Positions 53 through 10,133 of a stretch of 11,931 nucleotides of DNA are shown here, piece after piece. Position numbers and translations under genes: made by a program. The stretch comes from CBDUXP01 sp965371225 [NCBI: uncultured bacterium]. Its GTDB lineage: Bacteria > Abyssobacteria > SURF-5 > CBDUXP01. The notes under the pieces are model-generated. The model had not been told where the DNA came from. It ran no database searches and saw only the letters and a program-made list of their open reading frames with translations. The stretch is from assembly GCA_965371225.1 (NCBI GenBank), contig CBDUXP010000089.1:1-11931 (forward strand), in the 5' to 3' direction. Every line of letters begins with the position of its first letter. The stretch's first letter is position 1.

Positions 53-79
53 GGGGCCGTTCGACACCCCGGCCCCTAC
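53..79 (-). repeat. REP-like hairpin unit, GGCCG family
   Basis: On the minus strand a GTAG foot (79-76) is followed by a hairpin with arms GGGCCG and CGGCCC (70-75 and 54-59 on the plus strand). It belongs to the same family as the units at 963-987 and 1158-1183 but has a different loop. It lies in tandem, in the same orientation, with the unit at 89-112. Confidence 0.6.
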
Positions 80-88
80 CTGGCAGGC

Positions 89-112
89 GGGCGCAATGAA
101 TTGCGCCCCTAC
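89..112 (-). repeat. REP-like hairpin unit, GCGCAATTCAT family
   Basis: On the minus strand a GTAG foot (112-109) is followed by a 20-nt palindrome (108-89) with arms GGGCGCA and TGCGCCC around the loop ATTCAT. The same word recurs at 1089-1112 and 3268-3291. Confidence 0.8.
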
Positions 113-962: not shown

Positions 963-987
963 GTAGGGGCCGGTATTGTGACCGCCC
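963..987 (+). repeat. REP-like hairpin unit, GGCCGGT family
   Basis: A GTAG foot (963-966) is followed by GGGC and GGT arms (with C971 bulged) pairing with ACC and GCCC around the loop ATTGTG. It is a degenerate relative of the perfect unit at 1158-1183, and the first complete repeat after the HAD stop codon. Confidence 0.6.
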
Positions 988-996
988 GAAAGAGAC

Positions 997-1026
997 ACCG
1001 CAGATGCACGCGGATACACGCAGACA
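997..1026 (-). repeat. Three-unit 10-bp-period tandem element, copy 2 (inverted)
   Basis: Read on the minus strand, the units are TGTCTGCGTG, TATCCGCGTG and CATCTGCGGT. Register and unit order match the copies at 162-194 and 3371-3404. It lies between two GTAG-footed hairpins. Confidence 0.7.
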
Positions 1027-1036
1027 AGAAAATCTT

Positions 1037-1062
1037 GTAGGGCACGGATGCCAATCCGTGCC
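1037..1062 (+). repeat. REP-like hairpin unit, GGCACGGAT family
   Basis: A GTAG foot (1037-1040) is followed by a perfect 9-bp stem, GGCACGGAT with ATCCGTGCC, around the loop GCCA. It is the only copy of this stem sequence in the window. It abuts a half unit (1063-1075) of the GCGACGCATGC type found complete at 3338-3361. Confidence 0.75.
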
Positions 1063-1088
1063 GCATGCGTCGCCCGCATCGATGTTCC

Positions 1089-1112
1089 GTAGGGGCGCAA
1101 TTCATTGCGCCC
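1089..1112 (+). repeat. REP-like hairpin unit, left half of BIME-like pair 1
   Basis: A GTAG foot (1089-1092) precedes a 20-nt palindrome with arms GGGCGCA and TGCGCCC and loop ATTCAT. It is paired, in opposite orientation and 8 bp away, with the unit at 1121-1144, so the GTAG feet lie at the outer ends of the pair. Confidence 0.85.
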
Positions 1113-1120
1113 AGGCACAT

Positions 1121-1144
1121 GGGCGCGATGAATCGCGCCCCTAC
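1121..1144 (-). repeat. REP-like hairpin unit, right half of BIME-like pair 1
   Basis: On the minus strand a GTAG foot (1144-1141) precedes arms GGGCGCG and CGCGCCC around the same loop, ATTCAT. Compared with the unit at 1089-1112, the loop-closing pair A-T is replaced by G-C, so pairing is kept. Confidence 0.85.
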
Positions 1145-1157
1145 GAAAGAAGGTCAT

Positions 1158-1183
1158 GTAGGGGCCGGTCTTCAGACCGGCCC
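1158..1183 (+). repeat. REP-like hairpin unit, GGCCGGTCT family
   Basis: A GTAG foot (1158-1161) is followed by a perfect inverted repeat, GGGCCGGTCT and AGACCGGCCC, separated by TC. This is the longest stem in the cluster. It faces the unit at 1190-1214. Confidence 0.85.
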
Positions 1184-1189
1184 GCACCG

Positions 1190-1214
1190 GGGCGATCACA
1201 AGGATCGCCCCTAC
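1190..1214 (-). repeat. REP-like hairpin unit, GGCGATC family
   Basis: On the minus strand a GTAG foot (1214-1211) is followed by arms GGGCGATC and GATCGCCC around the loop CTTGT. With 1158-1183 it forms a second outward-foot pair, here of two unlike stem sequences. Confidence 0.8.
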
Positions 1215-2338: not shown

Positions 2339-3205
2339 ATGCGTGTCACGAACCAATTGGCGATCGCCGCGACGGCGTGCCTGCTGGCGGGCGCGTCCTG
2401 CACGTCCGTCCCGGTGGCGACGGGGCGCCGCGCCGCGCGCGTGTCCCAGCGCAACCTGACCGACGCGCGCACGGCCCTGGCGCGGAACGACGGGGCCGCC
2501 GCGACTGATGCGCTGGTGGGTGCGATCCATGCCGCCCAGTACTTCGAGCGCAGCCGCCCGTCCGCCCGCCTTACGGGCGCCCTCGACTGGGCCCTGGCCG
2601 ACGTGGAGCGCGACAACCTGCCGGCGGTGGTGGAGCGGGGCGAGCGCATTCGCGAACAACTGGTGCGCTACGACGTCTACACCGACACGGCCGATACGTT
2701 GCAGATCGTGGACGAGGCGCTGGCGGCGGCAGAGCGCGGCGACGCCGGCATGACCCGCGCCCTGCTGGTCCGCGCGAAAACGGCGGTGCGGTTGCGGCCC
2801 ATCGACCGCGACGTGGGCGTGGCGCACGCGGCGCTCGGGGCCGCCTATCGCCATGTGGCCCTGCACCGCTATCGCGACGCGGAGGCGGACGTCACGAAAG
2901 CGCAAGCGGCGTTCCGGCGGGCGGAGAATGACATCCTGCTCGCCCACGCGCTGGCGCGGGTGCGGTGGGCGGAAGCCGCGGCGCCGGCGACCGATTACCG
3001 CGAGGCGGGGCGGCAAGCGGGATGGGCGGTGGCCATGTTGCGCGGGACGCGGGGCGACGTCGAGGGCGCGAGCCATCGGCGCATGTACGAATTGCTCGGC
3101 CAGTTGACGGCCATCGACGAGCGCGCGCGCTGGCAGGACGCCACCATCTGGGATGAACTGCCCGAGATCAGCGCCGCGCTGCACGCGCTGTTGCACGGAA
3201 AGTAA
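2339..3205 (+). CDS. Exported helical protein of unknown function, possible lipoprotein
   Basis: I do not recognise this 288-residue protein. Residues 1-21 form a signal sequence: MRVTN, then a hydrophobic run ending LLAGASC. Cys21 could be lipidated, but the residue at -3 is Gly rather than the usual Leu, so the lipobox is degenerate and cleavage by ordinary signal peptidase is also possible. The rest is rich in Ala, Arg, Asp and Glu and looks almost wholly alpha-helical, with amphipathic stretches resembling degenerate tetratricopeptide hairpins at about residues 38-60 and 165-215. No catalytic motif is seen. It starts 13 bp after selD behind a strong Shine-Dalgarno site and is probably co-transcribed, although nothing links it to selenium. 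A periplasmic or membrane-attached scaffold role is a guess. Its 3' end faces the MEMO gene across a repeat cluster that may help terminate both transcripts. Confidence 0.82.
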   Translation: MRVTNQLAIAATACLLAGASCTSVPVATGRRAARVSQRNLTDARTALARNDGAAATDALVGAIHAAQYFERSRPSARLTGALDWALADVERDNLPAVVERGERIREQLVRYDVYTDTADTLQIVDEALAAAERGDAGMTRALLVRAKTAVRLRPIDRDVGVAHAALGAAYRHVALHRYRDAEADVTKAQAAFRRAENDILLAHALARVRWAEAAAPATDYREAGRQAGWAVAMLRGTRGDVEGASHRRMYELLGQLTAIDERARWQDATIWDELPEISAALHALLHGK

Positions 3206-3267
3206 GCGCGAGACCGCGGCACGGTACGGCACGGCGCGGCGCGGGGCGATAGAGAACGAAGTCCAGC

Positions 3268-3291
3268 GTAGGGGCGCAATTCATTGCGCCC
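3268..3291 (+). repeat. REP-like hairpin unit, left half of BIME-like pair 2
   Basis: A GTAG foot (3268-3271) and a 20-nt palindrome (3272-3291) are identical to the unit at 1089-1112. With the next unit it forms a pair in the gap between convergent genes, where REP elements often protect or terminate transcripts. Confidence 0.85.
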
Positions 3292-3300
3292 AGCGCAACC

Positions 3301-3324
3301 GGGCGCGATGAATCGCGCCCTTAC
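3301..3324 (-). repeat. REP-like hairpin unit, right half of BIME-like pair 2
   Basis: The palindrome at 3301-3320 is identical to that at 1121-1140. The foot on the minus strand is GTAA instead of GTAG (TTAC at 3321-3324), the only foot mismatch among the complete units. The spacer to the left unit is 9 bp (8 bp in pair 1) and differs in sequence. Confidence 0.8.
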
Positions 3325-3337
3325 GGAACCACGATGC

Positions 3338-3361
3338 GGGCGACGCATGCGTCGCCCCTAC
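3338..3361 (-). repeat. REP-like hairpin unit, GCGACGCATGC family
   Basis: On the minus strand a GTAG foot (3361-3358) precedes a fully self-complementary 20-nt sequence with arms GGGCGACGCA and TGCGTCGCCC. Its inner part and flank (3325-3350) recur inverted at about 1062-1087, so more than the hairpin is shared. Confidence 0.8.
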
Positions 3362-3370
3362 ACGCGCCTC

Positions 3371-3404
3371 TCATCTGCGTTCGTCCGCGTCCATCCGCGG
3401 TTCC
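3371..3404 (+). repeat. Three-unit 10-bp-period tandem element, copy 3
   Basis: The units TCATCTGCGT, TCGTCCGCGT and CCATCCGCGG are followed by TTCC. They are the same element as at 162-194, with the window shifted by one base. It follows the hairpin at 3338-3361 by 9 bp and lies 3' of both convergent genes. Confidence 0.7.
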
Positions 3405-3437
3405 GATGTCCGGGGTGTCGACGGGCCGCGGGTGGAG

Positions 3438-4682
3438 TTAGGGCGCGTGAAACGCCACGCTCGCGAACGTGACGCAATCATGCGGGTCCGGCCACTGCCG
3501 GTATTGCAGCAGCTCGCCGCGCGTGGGGTCGAGGACGGACAGCATGGTGTAGATGCACGGGAGGCCGCAGACGCGGCGCTCGTCCCGCACCGCTTGAATC
3601 TCCGCGAAGAACTGGTCCGCGTTGCCGGCCACGACGGCGTCGAGCATCTGCAGGTCCGCCTCCTGCACCCGGCTGCGCACCGCGTCATCCGCGGGGTCCG
3701 CATCCCCGAATTTCGTGCCCACGTGCGCCAGGTCCGCGCTCGCGAGGAGACACACGCGGGCGCCGTCGGCCCGCGCCTCCGCCACCGCCGCGCGCAGGCC
3801 TGCCACCATCCCGGCGACCCCCGGCGCGCGGTCCGGGGCGGCGTTCTCCTGGATGAAGTGGTGGAAGGAGCCGCAGAGGATGGGCACGATGCGGATGTCC
3901 CGCCGCGCCGCGTAGAGATACTGCAGCAGCACCGCGTGGAATTCGATGGAATGCTCGCCCCGGTGGGCGAACTCGTCCGCGGTCAGGTCCAGGTCCACGT
4001 GCCGTTGCACCGTATCGAGGAAGCGCGTGTCGGTGGGCAGGGTGCCGAACGGGGTCGCGAAGCCCTTCCACGTGGCCGTGTAGAGGTTGTACACCTCCCC
4101 GTGGCCGGTGCCGAGAATGACGAACAGGTCCGCGTCCGCGTGCGCCGCGATCGCCGCGTAGCCGTGGCCGTACGTGGGCCCGCCGCGCCGGAAATCGATG
4201 TGCGGCACGATCGCTCCGCGCAGGCTGCCCGTGCCCCCGCCCACCGTCGGCACCCGTCCCGGGCCGTCCGCCTGGGTGAAGAGTGCGTCGAGTTCCGCGC
4301 GCAGCGCCACCGGCTCCGCGTCGTAACTCCGCCCCGCCAGCGAGGCCGGCCGCACCGGGGCGCTCCGAAACTCTTCTTCCAGGTGGGCGCGCGCGTCGCG
4401 GTAGGTGGGCGAATCGAGAAACGTATGCCGGTCGAGGGTCTCGAGTAATTGCCGGATTTGCGCGGTGTCGATGCTGACGCCGTGGTCCGCCTGCACCGCT
4501 GCGGCCACGTCCTCCACGGTCCGGGTCCCAGTGCAATAGTTGAGCACCACCGCGGCCGCGAGGGGGAACACGAGCACCGCGTCGGTAACATCGAAGGGGT
4601 CGCGCAGCACGATGACTTGCTCCCCCTCCACCTCGGCCCCCTGCGCGTCCACGTGGCGCAGGCGCGGGCGTTCGGGAATCAT
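3438..4682 (-). CDS. MEMO-family protein (AmmeMemoRadiSam system protein B type) with N-terminal PqqD-like domain
   Basis: This 414-residue protein belongs to the MEMO family, which shares the fold of class III ring-opening dioxygenases; human MEMO1 binds iron or copper through two His and a Cys. The family pattern is complete in residues 155-414: H161 (IVPHIDF), H194 (LGTGHG), the HSIEFH block from H244, D317 and H320 (ASADLAHVG), and C372 (RRVCGLP). The first 100 residues (PRLRHVDAQG to TFLDSP) look like a PqqD-like or winged-helix domain, a layout I recall from other bacterial members. The ATG at 4682 is chosen because it overlaps the LysM stop as ATGA, implying translational coupling; a reading 73 residues longer would overlap the LysM gene heavily and adds a low-complexity Arg/Gly leader. 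The usual AMMECR1 and radical-SAM partners are absent here. It is the last gene of the operon. Family is confident; reaction unknown. Confidence 0.9.
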   Translation of the reverse strand: MIPERPRLRHVDAQGAEVEGEQVIVLRDPFDVTDAVLVFPLAAAVVLNYCTGTRTVEDVAAAVQADHGVSIDTAQIRQLLETLDRHTFLDSPTYRDARAHLEEEFRSAPVRPASLAGRSYDAEPVALRAELDALFTQADGPGRVPTVGGGTGSLRGAIVPHIDFRRGGPTYGHGYAAIAAHADADLFVILGTGHGEVYNLYTATWKGFATPFGTLPTDTRFLDTVQRHVDLDLTADEFAHRGEHSIEFHAVLLQYLYAARRDIRIVPILCGSFHHFIQENAAPDRAPGVAGMVAGLRAAVAEARADGARVCLLASADLAHVGTKFGDADPADDAVRSRVQEADLQMLDAVVAGNADQFFAEIQAVRDERRVCGLPCIYTMLSVLDPTRGELLQYRQWPDPHDCVTFASVAFHAP

Positions 4683-6374: not shown

Positions 6375-6403
6375 TTGATTCTCAGCGCGCCCTCCCGCAG
6401 AAT
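6375..6403 (+). promoter_or_regulatory. Weak sigma-70-like promoter for the M1-M28 peptidase gene
   Basis: TTGATT (6375-6380) and CAGAAT (6398-6403) are separated by 17 bp, each matching consensus at four positions. A start near 6410 would exclude the in-frame TTG at 6375 and ATG at 6402 and support the ATG at 6450. Confidence 0.3.
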
Positions 6404-6449
6404 GAGGCCCGCACTGACCCCTTGGGAACTACCGTTCCGCTGCTGCCGG

Positions 6450-9400
6450 ATGCCGAGTCGCTTCTCCCCAATCGCCCTCCTGGGCGGCGTTTGCCTCCTG
6501 GCTTGGGGCGTACCCCGCTCCGCCTGGGCCGTCGCGCCGCAGATCACGCACCACGAACTGGAAGTGGTGATGGATCCCGACACCCACTGGTTGGCGGCGA
6601 CGGATCGCCTGCACATCGTGTGGGATCCGGGCGGGGGCCGGCCCGTCAACTTTCTCCTGTCCGACGCGTTGAAAGTGGAGGCCGTCCGCCTGGAGGATGG
6701 CACGGAGTTGGACTGGACTGTGAGCGCGGCATTAAACGGCCGCCAACAGGTGACCGTGCTGGTGCCCCCGAGCGCCCCGCGCCAGTTGAAGATCACGGTG
6801 GTGTACCGCGGTGCGATCGCCGATGCGATCGACCCGGAGCCGGGGCTGACGTTCGTGGCCGGCGACCGGACCCGGGGCATCATCGATCCCCAGGGAATTT
6901 ACCTGTCTAGCGACAGCGGCTGGATCCCCGCCGGGCCCGATGCGCTAGCCACTTACCGCATCGGGGTGACCGTGCCCGAAGGGTGGCAGGTGTGCACGCA
7001 GGGCCGCCTGGTGCGCGACGGCGTCGATCCCGCCGGGTGGCGCAGCGAGTGGCTCACCACCGTGCCCAGCGACGGGTTGGCGCTGGTGGCCGGCCACTAT
7101 GAAGTCGAACGGCGCCGGTTCGGCGACTTCGTAGTGGCCACGTACCTGTTCGCCGAACACGCGCAGGCATCCGAACAACTGGCGCGCGCTGCGGGGGACT
7201 ACCTGCGGCGGTTCAGCGACCTGCTCGGCCCCTACCCGTTCGAAGAGTTCGCCATCGTCGAGAACTTCTTCTCGAGCGGCTACGCGTTTCCCGGGTTCAC
7301 GCTGCTGGGGAAGGGCGTCCTGAGCGCGCCGCAGCGGATGCTCACCCCCGGCTACCTGGATCACGAGATCGTGCACAACTGGTGGGGGAACGGCGTGGTG
7401 GTGGACGAGCGGGAAGGCAACTGGTCCGAGGCGCTGGCCACGTACTACGCCAACTACCTGGCCGCGGAACGGGAGAGCCCGGCGGCCGCGGCCGCGTACC
7501 GGCGCCGCGGCGTGTTGCGCTTCAGCCTGCACGCGCCGCCCGGGGCGGACTATCCCGTCAGCATGTTCGAGACCAAGACGTCCAAGCTGGACGACGCGGT
7601 GGGGTACACGAAGGGGGCCATGCTCGTGCATCACTTGCGCCGGACGGTGGGCGACGAGGTGTTCTGGCCGACCATGCGCGAGGTGGCGCAGGCGCACATC
7701 GGCACGCGCGTGGGGTGGAGCACGTTCGTCAACGCGCTCGCGCAGCGGTCGGGCCGGCCGCTGCAGGAGTGGGTCGGCCAGTGGCTGCACCGCACGGGCG
7801 CGCCGGACCTGCGGCTGGAGGACGTGCGCGTTACGCCGCAGGCCGAGGGCTACCGCATCTCGGGGGTCGTGGCGCAGGAAGGCGAGCCGTACACCCTCGC
7901 GTTGCCCGTGCGGGTCGACACCAGCCGGGGGCCGTACCGGGCGACCCTGCCGGTGACCCAGGCGCGCACGCGATTCGCGTTGCCGGTCAGCGGCCTCCCG
8001 GTCCGGTTGACCTTGGACCCGGAAGACCTGGTGTTTCACCGCCTCCCCCCGGCGGCGCAGACCCCGTGCCTGAACCGGACGCTGTACGGCGGCCCGCTCC
8101 TGTGCGTATACCCGGAAGACCCGCAGGACGCGCGCAACCCCATCTATCGCCGGCTGGCGGAGAAAGCGGCGGCGGACCGCGACGGCCGGGCGATCCCGGA
8201 GAGTGAAGTCACTTCGCGGTTGCTCGCGGACCGGTCGCTTCTGCTGTTCGGCGCCCCGACGGCCCACCCGCTGCTGCGGCGGCTGTTGCAACCTGAGGTG
8301 GGGCTGCCTTCCGTCGAGGCGCAGGCGTTCACCCTGCGCGGCGTGCGCCACGCCGGAGAGATGGATGCGGTGCTGGCGACGGCGACGCGGGTGGGGGCGC
8401 CGGAGCGGACCGTCACCCTGTATGCGGGCAATAGCGCCGCCGCCCTGGAACGCGCCGACCTGATGTTCTTTTACGGATGGGATTCCGTCGTTCGGTTTGC
8501 GCGCGGCCGCCCGGTCGAACGCTTCGACCTGCCCGCGGTCGCCTCCCCCCGGGTGTGGGACGGCGTGGCGGCCATCGGGGCTGCCCCGGACCCGGACGGC
8601 ATGGCCGAGGTGGTGCGCTACCTGGCGGATCCGTGGCTGCTGGGGCGCCTGACCGGCCAACCAGAAAGCCTGCAAGCGCGCCGTCTGCTTATCACGCGCT
8701 TTGCCGCGCTCGGTCTGGGCACCGCCTCGTCGGCCGTGCAAGAGTTTTCCGTGGCCGATCCCGAGGTGCTCGGGCCGCAGCCCACAGGGATCCTGTCATC
8801 GCGCCGCACGGAACTCTCGGTGCCCGTGTGGCCCGTGGCGTGGAGCGCGCCGGCGGCGGCCGAGGGGAACCTGATGTTCGCCGGTTACGGGTGGGCCGAC
8901 GGGGTGTGGAACGACTACGGACGCCAGCGCGCGCGCGGCCGAATTGTGGCCGTGTTCGGTGGGGGCCCGCCGGGGCTGGACGACATGCCCAAGCTGGACG
9001 CGCTGGCGCGGCAGGCGGTGACGGCGCAGGCGCGGGAGGCCGCCGGCTTGCTGGTGGTAGTGCCCACGGATGAATTGAGTGAGTACCTGCCCGCCATCGC
9101 GCTGCCGTATACCAACCTGCCGTGGCCCGGCCCGCGCAGTCCGCGGGGGGAGGGGGGCGTCCGCGGCCGGCCGGCACTCGCCGTGCGCGCCGCGCGTATC
9201 CGGAACCGCCAGCCGCCGCCCTCGACGCCCATCACGATCCCCGTGTGGATTCTGCCCTGGGACGCGGCGGCCGCGCCGGAACTCGGGCCGCTGCAATTGC
9301 TGCGCTGGCGCACCCGCCTGGAGAGCGGCCGGGTGTCGACCGTCGCGCGTATGCGTGGGGCGGCGTTCCGGGCGCCCGTCTTCTGGTCGGCGCGGCAGCG

Positions 9401-10133
9401 GACCGGGGCGAACGTGCTGGGCCTGCTCGAGGGAACCGACCCGGTATTAAAGGATGAGGTCATCGTGGTCGGCGCGCACTACGACCACCTGGGGTTGGCG
9501 GAGTCCGGCGAAGTCTTCCGCGGGGCGGACGACAATGCGTCCGGCGTGGCGGCGCTGCTGGCGGCCGCCCAGCTGTTGGTCGGCCAGAAGGCCCACCTGC
9601 GGCGCAGTGTCGCTTTCGTGGCGTTTGACGCGGAAGAATGGGGGTTGGTCGGGTCGCGCGCCTTCGTGCAGGCGGACCTGCTGGCGCCCAAGCGCATCAT
9701 CGCCATGCTGAACGTCGATAGCATCGGCCACAACATCGGGGACACGGTGTACCTGGTGGGGGGCAGCCGGCATCCGGAGTTGGGCGCCGCGGCGCGCGGG
9801 TGGGCCAGCGTGCTGGGGCTGACCGTCGGGCGCGACATTGACACCGTGGCCTATCGCGCCGGGAGCGACCACTGGCCGTTTGCGGAACGGGGCATCCCCG
9901 CGCTGACCCTGTTCGCGTCGGACTACCGTGCCATCGATTCGCTCACGGACGTGCCCGAGGCGACGGACGCGGAACACATGGCGCGGGTGGCGCACCTGCT
10001 CGGAACGCTCACGTACGAACTCGCCACGCGGCCCGGCGCGCGGGGAGCGGCAGAGCCCGCACCAACCCCCAGGGTGGTTGTACCCGACCCGCTGGAGCCG
10101 AGCGCGGTGCAACCCAACTGGCCCGCGCCGTGA
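6450..10133 (+). CDS. Secreted double metallopeptidase: M1 aminopeptidase-like plus M28 peptidase
   Basis: This 1227-residue exported protein joins two zinc peptidase families. ATG 6450 is chosen because it begins a clean signal peptide (residues 1-27, ending SAWA); upstream in-frame TTG 6375 and ATG 6402 would bury it. The M1 part (about 30-460) has the VENFFSSGYAFPGFTLLG segment, HEIVH (H305, E306, H309) with the third ligand probably E327 in GNWSEAL, and YTKGAM with a likely catalytic Tyr386. Residues about 540-700 match, as I recall it, a domain often seen in such M1 proteins (TLYAGNSAAAL, FYGWDS). The M28 part starts near 720 (RYLADPWLLGRLTGQPES), carries a PA-like insert around 805-930, and has AHYDHLG (H1010), GADDNASG (D1028), FDAEEWG (E1062, E1063) and NVDSIG (D1090). 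The expected last ligand His appears to be Asp1163. It probably degrades peptides outside the cytoplasm. The next peptidase gene follows after 16 bp. Confidence 0.9.
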   Translation: MPSRFSPIALLGGVCLLAWGVPRSAWAVAPQITHHELEVVMDPDTHWLAATDRLHIVWDPGGGRPVNFLLSDALKVEAVRLEDGTELDWTVSAALNGRQQVTVLVPPSAPRQLKITVVYRGAIADAIDPEPGLTFVAGDRTRGIIDPQGIYLSSDSGWIPAGPDALATYRIGVTVPEGWQVCTQGRLVRDGVDPAGWRSEWLTTVPSDGLALVAGHYEVERRRFGDFVVATYLFAEHAQASEQLARAAGDYLRRFSDLLGPYPFEEFAIVENFFSSGYAFPGFTLLGKGVLSAPQRMLTPGYLDHEIVHNWWGNGVVVDEREGNWSEALATYYANYLAAERESPAAAAAYRRRGVLRFSLHAPPGADYPVSMFETKTSKLDDAVGYTKGAMLVHHLRRTVGDEVFWPTMREVAQAHIGTRVGWSTFVNALAQRSGRPLQEWVGQWLHRTGAPDLRLEDVRVTPQAEGYRISGVVAQEGEPYTLALPVRVDTSRGPYRATLPVTQARTRFALPVSGLPVRLTLDPEDLVFHRLPPAAQTPCLNRTLYGGPLLCVYPEDPQDARNPIYRRLAEKAAADRDGRAIPESEVTSRLLADRSLLLFGAPTAHPLLRRLLQPEVGLPSVEAQAFTLRGVRHAGEMDAVLATATRVGAPERTVTLYAGNSAAALERADLMFFYGWDSVVRFARGRPVERFDLPAVASPRVWDGVAAIGAAPDPDGMAEVVRYLADPWLLGRLTGQPESLQARRLLITRFAALGLGTASSAVQEFSVADPEVLGPQPTGILSSRRTELSVPVWPVAWSAPAAAEGNLMFAGYGWADGVWNDYGRQRARGRIVAVFGGGPPGLDDMPKLDALARQAVTAQAREAAGLLVVVPTDELSEYLPAIALPYTNLPWPGPRSPRGEGGVRGRPALAVRAARIRNRQPPPSTPITIPVWILPWDAAAAPELGPLQLLRWRTRLESGRVSTVARMRGAAFRAPVFWSARQRTGANVLGLLEGTDPVLKDEVIVVGAHYDHLGLAESGEVFRGADDNASGVAALLAAAQLLVGQKAHLRRSVAFVAFDAEEWGLVGSRAFVQADLLAPKRIIAMLNVDSIGHNIGDTVYLVGGSRHPELGAAARGWASVLGLTVGRDIDTVAYRAGSDHWPFAERGIPALTLFASDYRAIDSLTDVPEATDAEHMARVAHLLGTLTYELATRPGARGAAEPAPTPRVVVPDPLEPSAVQPNWPAP

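Follow-up and report, generated by a model that had tools for sequence, protein, structure and literature searches.

A cluster of GTAG-footed REP hairpins in a 71% G+C bacterium and its ties to RAYT genes of other genomes

Genes and hairpins of the window

The window, i.e., the whole stretch of DNA analysed here, comprises 11,931 bases with a G+C content of 71%. On its + strand, a HAD-type hydrolase is predicted at 245-940, a selD-like AIR-synthase protein at 1276-2325 (counted from the ATG at 1276) and a protein without a match at 2339-3205, and a Memo-like protein is predicted on the - strand (3438-4679); further genes code for a LysM protein, an acyl-CoA dehydrogenase and an M16 peptidase. 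The + strand open reading frame at 6375-10133 is a single frame of 1252 residues, in which a Pfam M1 peptidase domain is followed by an M28 peptidase domain.

Three clusters of REP hairpins are present in the window (53-112, 963-1214 and 3268-3361), all of them intergenic; the preliminary description had covered the second, and the pattern thus extends to two further places. The cluster at 963-1214 lies within a 335-base gap between the HAD-type hydrolase and the selD-like gene. It contains six GTAG feet, four on the + strand (963, 1037, 1089 and 1158) and two on the - strand (1144 and 1214). The preliminary description had counted six complete hairpins starting with GTAG; all six feet are there, and five of them carry perfect stems of 8-10 bp, but the sixth, at 963, is bulged and incomplete. 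This imperfect REP (963..987, + strand, GTAG foot, stem GGGCCGGT/ACCGCCC) folds with -5.5 kcal/mol (z -1.3), and the other five elements with -9.5 to -11.7 kcal/mol (z about -5.5 to -6.0). The REP at 1037..1062 (+ strand) has the stem GGCACGGAT of 9 bp and the four-base loop GCCA. The next one, at 1089..1112 (+ strand, stem GGGCGCAAT, 9 bp, loop 2), forms a feet-out, i.e., head-to-head, pair with the - strand element at 1121..1144 (foot 1141-1144, stem GGGCGCGAT, 9 bp, loop 2), and a second such pair is made by 1158..1183 (+ strand, stem GGGCCGGTCT, 10 bp, loop 2) and 1190..1214 (- strand, foot 1211-1214, stem GGGCGATC, loop CTTGT; 8 bp and loop 5, foot excluded). The presence of both orientations and of four hairpins arranged as two outward-foot pairs (1089+/1144- and 1158+/1214-), as described before, was thus confirmed. 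Folded as DNA, the region 955-1215 (261 nt) gave z values of -9.3 for the + strand and -10.7 for the - strand. GTAG remained unpaired in seven of eight folded sequences, the exception being a degenerate element with its foot at 79 on the - strand.

This degenerate GTAG element (53..79, foot 76-79, stem 6-7 bp, loop 10) shares its cluster with a - strand REP at 89..112 (GTAG foot 109-112, stem GGGCGCAAT). In the cluster at 3268-3361, a + strand REP with a GTAG foot and the stem GGGCGCAAT (3268..3291) forms a feet-out pair with a - strand REP that has the stem GGGCGCGAT and the degenerate foot GTAA (3301..3324); a further - strand REP lies at 3338..3361 (GTAG foot 3358-3361, stem GGGCGACGC). The window thus has two GTAG feet-out pairs and one with a GTAA foot, with a pair length of about 52-62 bp. 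Its arms are GCAAT, GCGAT, GATC, CGGTCT, GACGC and CACGGAT, plus the bulged one.

We compared the number of hairpins with that in shuffled DNA, counting as perfect those with a GTAG foot, a stem of at least 7 bp and a loop of 2-8. Eight were found in the window (8 per 11.9 kb), as against a mean of 0.063 and a maximum of 1 in 300 dinucleotide shuffles. Among all 256 possible feet GTAG ranked top with its 8 hairpins, tied with TAGG, since TAGG represents the same hairpins read one base on. Three degenerate elements (963, 79- and the GTAA-footed 3324-) come on top of the eight. All eight perfect stems start with three G-C pairs (GGG, or GGC in the 1037 element), and in seven of them the stem opens with GGGC, the 1037 element opening with GGCA. 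Double-foot elements were absent among the window elements.

The sequence of 1037-1145 and that of 3267-3361 in reverse complement seem to be variants of a single composite, laid out as a REP, then the spacer GCATCG..GTTCC, then the GCAAT/GCGAT pair. The + strand segment 1063..1088, which consists of a spacer and the right half of a REP of the GGGCGACGC type, resembles the region beside the 3361 element and is apparently a remnant of this composite whose left half was replaced by the 1037 element. In comparison to 3338-3361, the chimeric REP at 1037-1088 has the GGCACGGAT hairpin in place of the left part (GACGC/GGGCGACGC type), and the right half GCATGCGTCGCCC and the spacer remain. The chimera, which is a single case, could have arisen either by entry of a REP into a REP with a loss of about 11 bases, or by a template switch at the shared GTAGGG.

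GTAG hairpins at RAYT genes of other genomes

The selD product identified at least 80 loci with 43-56% identity, spread over many phyla; for the other seven window proteins, tblastn against these loci gave three weak matches with 29-32% identity (L011, L023 and L039). For 42 of the 80 selD loci, the genome was searched with the RAYT model NF047646, which gave matches in 19 of the 42, in 5 of them above the curated cut-off. GTAG hairpins were present in 8 of the 20 NF047646 loci returned, with GTAGGGGC in 7 of those 8. Six of the seven RAYTs with GTAGGGGC share the motifs RL..YDYS..G.YFVT, MPNH.HG and WQR.YYEH, and the seventh (L082) represents a different class. A profile named A2 was built from those six, i.e., from RAYTs already seen beside GTAG hairpins. 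It gave no match to the 179 ORFs of at least 30 codons in the window, and a Pfam scan of the 8 predicted proteins found no Y1 domain; this agrees with the earlier statement that no RAYT gene is in the window. Matches to A2 were found in 75 of 201 genomes from the phylum of G013 (locus labelled Chloroflexota) and, mostly weak, in 53 of 299 genomes from the phylum of G040 (locus labelled Proteobacteria). The sole PDB match of the profile was E. coli TnpAREP (4ER8, E 6.6e-6). Two proteins of the clade defined below were compared with Pfam Y1_Tnp: that of L094 passes (26.2 vs 23 bits) and that of L237 lies just under (22.0).

Loci were then sampled mainly as best A2 matches (L131-L160, 20 further stretches and 30 loci from the G040 phylum). 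At a score cut of 130, set in this analysis, all loci in hand together yielded a RAYT clade of 61 distinct genes, duplicate proteins and matches of fewer than 100 profile positions being left out. Perfect GT[AG]G hairpins were found inside, or at most 300 bp away from, 45 of the 61 genes, and the remaining 16 were without such a hairpin nearby. The hairpin readings at the clade genes numbered 134, a double-foot palindrome being counted once per foot, vs 0.6 in shuffles, and 115 of the 134 have a GGGC stem base. As all six seed genes have hairpins, we also counted without the seeds, which left 39 of 55 genes and 118 readings. In 28 of the 61 genes a hairpin lies in the open frame between the HUH and Tyr motifs. 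Such hairpins occurred at 6 of the 26 other Y1 genes kept, none of them between the motifs. Thus, the proposed identity of the window elements as RAYT-linked GTAG REPs is well supported via the RAYT genes of other genomes. A scan of IMG/VR for RAYTs returned one locus, L230.

One RAYT gene is tied to the window by a stem word. At L237 (genome G216, phylum of G013), the RAYT open frame carries GTAGGGGCGATCCTGGTGATCGCCC at its 5' end; this element, with a GATC stem, equals the window element at 1190..1214 with one loop base changed. The 5' part of this open frame also contains tandem 41-base repeats composed of a REP half and a spacer (L237:1330-1460).

The TnpAREP subclass 2.4 has been described by Quentin et al. 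(2018; accessible part of PMC6006769) as having three G-C pairs at the stem base, double-foot REPs and in-frame REPs between HuH and Y. The window stem bases of three consecutive G-C pairs resemble those of subclass 2.4 REPtrons, and the RAYT genes of other genomes share with them both the in-frame REPs between HuH and Y and the double-foot REPs; the subclass is assigned here from this published description and not via its authors' model. The window, however, differs from subclass 2.4 REPtrons in that it is without a RAYT and without a double-foot element, and its elements fit the canonical long type. REPs inside RAYT genes had been considered as a novelty, but this was dropped, as they are already reported in the same paper.

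Stem types, pairs and shared words

Conservation along the stem was measured on the 41 different arms found at RAYTs of the clade. It amounts to 2.0, 2.0, 1.67 and 1.56 bits at positions 1-4, drops to 0.82 bits at position 5, where G or A prevails, and is only 0.21, 0.13, 0.13 and 0.34 bits at positions 6-9; most window elements fit this form. These numbers set the part that the transposase seems to read (foot and lower stem) against the free part (upper stem). For the mixed stems of the window, the preliminary description had offered either several sublines or one transposase tolerating many stems. Among the 43 RAYTs with GG-stem REPs (only elements opening GG entered the arm counts and the pair counts), one arm was found in 28, two in 13 and three in 2. 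RAYT pairs that share an arm (24 of 891 pairs, all between different genomes) have a mean identity of 57% vs 42% for the rest, a difference reached in 0 of 2000 permutations. As most RAYTs have one arm and sharing follows relatedness, the stem is the mark of its RAYT subline, other stems being tolerated to a limited extent. A single RAYT of broad specificity, moving every stem of the window, is a doubtful alternative, yet one with some weight: 15 of 43 RAYT loci have two or three stem types, the halves of pairs often differ (see below) and the upper-stem positions are nearly free. It fits less well with the single-stem majority, with the way in which stem sharing tracks RAYT relatedness and with the at least five different arms of the window. 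Thus, the several arms of the window point to several sublines, which fits better than one tolerant transposase.

In the window, the halves of the feet-out pairs carry different stems in 3 of 3 cases, the GTAA pair included. Unlike halves were also found in 12 of 12 feet-out pairs with perfect stems at 59 RAYT loci and in 16 of 16 from the samples of G001 and G014, and the G190 samples had 10 elements and no pair. Among all loci in hand, which include loci fetched for holding a window word, 44 of 65 feet-out pairs have unlike arms (8 of them by one base) vs 21 alike; in this count the 3268 element is paired with the 3361 one, because the GTAA-footed element between them goes unrecognised. Of the alike pairs, 17 have a GGGCGAAT arm, two come from L081, and L162 and L175 have one apiece. 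The idea that feet-out pairs are always unlike is ruled out by these 21 pairs. At least two alike pairs with the GGGCGAAT arm come from L082, a G040 RAYT locus; there the RAYT is of another class, most REPs are GTGG-footed GGGCGAAT elements and like halves are paired, in contrast to the mostly unlike pairs in the 2.4 clade. Heterodimers, and also protection from cleavage, are already discussed in PMC3733652 (accessible part). The choice of partner is partly kept between genomes. GCAAT pairs with GCGAT in both the window and G001, and GATC is paired with GAAT in G001, GAAC in L235 and CGGTCT in the window, with pair centres that are the same but for one base (GCATCG in G001 vs GCACCG in the window).

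Four window words recur letter for letter outside the source DNA. Two of them occur in G001, a genome whose locus comes from groundwater and is labelled Latescibacterota; there the elements at 1121..1144 and 1190..1214 have exact words. GTAGGGGCGATCCTTGTGATCGCCC has at least 20 copies in G001 among the 100 places listed and is also found in 5 IMG/VR stretches; GTAGGGGCGCGATTCATCGCGCCC has 4 copies in G001 and none in the other 15 genomes searched of that phylum. The genomes G006 (from a locus labelled Nitrospinota) and G014 (Chloroflexi) contain GTAGGGGCGACGCATGCGTCGCCC, as do 17 IMG/VR stretches, and GTAGGGGCGCAATTCATTGCGCCC is present in 3 IMG/VR contigs. One of the latter (L161) is a tailed phage with a tail tape-measure gene (PHROG 991, E 9e-50), and a feet-out partner of GTAGGGGCGCAATTCATTGCGCCC is present there too. 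The REP pair with the window GCAAT word lies at L161:4162-4213, about 650 bases before the tail tape-measure gene. The GGGCCGGTCT word had no match in IMG/VR and the CACGGAT word none among the loci in hand. A looser pattern gave 227 matches on G001 vs 557 in the reversed control; being below its own control, it was dropped with its counts and only exact G001 words were used. As for the genes, the M1/M28 protein has distant matches in 16 of 16 genomes of the G001 phylum, the best one (E 1.9e-33) with 32% identity over about 500 residues and up to 48% in short stretches.

The sharing of words could reflect either transfer or a recurrence owing to the small number of loops and stems allowed. Tentatively, the identical 24-25 nt GTAG-GGGC hairpins and feet-out pairs might represent a phylum-crossing vocabulary passing between distant bacteria, possibly via phages, ahead of or apart from the transposase gene, with halves exchanged while the partner half and the short centre stay recognisable; we regard this as possible rather than probable. 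Some GTAG REP families occupy evolutionarily distant organisms (PMC3733652, accessible part), and the partial texts returned by literature searches aimed at other points included no paper on exact REP words shared between phyla. Exact words across several phyla and in one phage contig make horizontal REP spread directly testable, and this sharing is the part that could become more.

We also related REP content to RAYT presence in the 42 genomes. Genomes with at least 20 matches to the pattern GTAGGGGC-N10-15-GCCC, and three times the reversed control, were called REP-rich, a rule chosen after the counts were seen. Nine of the 42 are REP-rich by this rule. Strong A2 matches occur in 4 of these 9 vs 2 of the 33 others (Fisher p 0.013), and any A2 match in 6 of 9 vs 4 of 33 (p 0.0025). 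Among REP-rich genomes, neither NF047646 nor A2 found a match in G003 and G006; in G031 and G040 the A2 matches are only weak and the RAYTs belong to another class. The search for a RAYT proposed in the preliminary description had a negative outcome for G001, which is likewise REP-rich and shares two window words: none was found with NF047646, A2 or PF01797. The G001 assembly consists of short contigs, at least six of those listed starting within 60 bases of a REP, so that a REP-flanked RAYT could be lost from it.

Nature of the REP array

The cluster is real, well above chance and of an ordinary kind, namely GTAG REPs of the subclass 2.4 type. With a probability of about 0.88, we consider it an array of non-autonomous REPs that occur mostly in feet-out pairs (REPINs) and belong to the class mobilised by TnpAREP/RAYT of subclass 2.4. 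This reading builds on what was observed directly: the hairpins, their excess, their class, the pairs and the ties to RAYT genes in other genomes. REPINs, a name that goes back to Bertels and Rainey in 2011, are reportedly feet-out pairs with a short centre and the apparent unit of spread; the window has feet-out pairs with a short centre alike, but their halves carry different stems.

How such elements would move can be sketched by analogy with published work on E. coli, Stenotrophomonas and Marinomonas, from which both mobilisation in the source genome and the cleavage chemistry are taken. In a region made single-stranded by replication or repair, each element would fold and leave a 5' GTAG unpaired. 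The gene for a Y1 HUH transposase acting in trans would lie at another place in the genome or have belonged to a former resident; the enzyme would recognise GTAG together with the constant bases of the lower stem (GGGC followed by G or A), and cleavage at a nearby dinucleotide would allow the element to be copied or rejoined at other intergenic sites. The upper stem would need only to pair; it would therefore drift and mark sublines, and the window stem words would thus record several RAYT/REP sublines piled into the same gene gaps. The hairpins may have a secondary role at transcript ends.

Transcription terminators or mRNA-stabilising hairpins, retained for that role and not mobile, would account for the gene-gap position and the strong folding, and REPs elsewhere can act so (PMC3733652, accessible part); one or more of the hairpins may serve so secondarily. 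As an explanation of the cluster this is unlikely, since it leaves unexplained the fixed unpaired GTAG foot in both orientations, the stacks of at least five hairpins with different stems, and the words common to several phyla and a phage contig together with the tie to RAYT genes; moreover, an Rfam search of the window gave no hit at gathering score. The hairpins could also be left over from IS200/IS605 ends or from MITE termini and have nothing to do with REPs; such ends have similar hairpins and are served by the same enzyme superfamily (PMC6006769, accessible part). However, in an IS200/IS605 insertion sequence the two ends enclose a Y1 transposase gene, and no transposase or Y1 ORF was found in the window, the pairs measure only about 52-62 bp, and the hairpins are single or paired in a REP-like manner, which makes this origin very improbable. 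Chance palindromes are favoured by high G+C, which raises the number of hairpins (35 perfect stems of at least 7 bp with loops of 2-14 in the window), but this reading is refuted for practical purposes by the GTAG-footed hairpins (8 vs 0.06) and by the recurrence of exact words in other genomes.

Among known systems, the array is thus best compared with the GTAG REPs, of which 24 families have been reported from several phyla, Chloroflexi and PVC among others, and which form heterodimers, feet-out pairs and mixed clusters (Di Nocera et al. 2013; PMC3733652, accessible part). In members of this superfamily GTAG is left unpaired at one end, the stems mostly measure 6-13 bp and the loops are often short, and the perfect window elements, with 8-10 bp stems and loops of 2-5, lie within this form. 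As in the window, they are intergenic and occur as singles, feet-out pairs and mixed clusters with frequent heterodimers. The organism is different, and the likeness is one of form, not of specific stem words. The foot being GTAG and not CGTC, the elements fall outside the CGTC REP superfamily. Mosaics of unlike REPs are also known from E. coli BIMEs with y and z REPs (PMC8266576, accessible part), but E. coli REPs need a bulge, whereas the eight main elements of the window have perfect stems. According to the same source, SELEX on three systems found the relative weight of foot and stem to depend on the enzyme, and a non-specific structural role was suggested for the E. coli upper stem-loop. 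A hairpin cluster from a 71% G+C bacterium is hereby placed in a known class.

Next to each of the REP clusters lies a copy of another short repeat, which has the form ATCTGTGTTTATCCGTGTTCATCTGTGGTT and a periodicity of about 10 bases (158-197, 990-1030 in reverse, and 3367-3412). An exact 23-mer of this repeat is present in 2 IMG/VR contigs, and a related form in L166.
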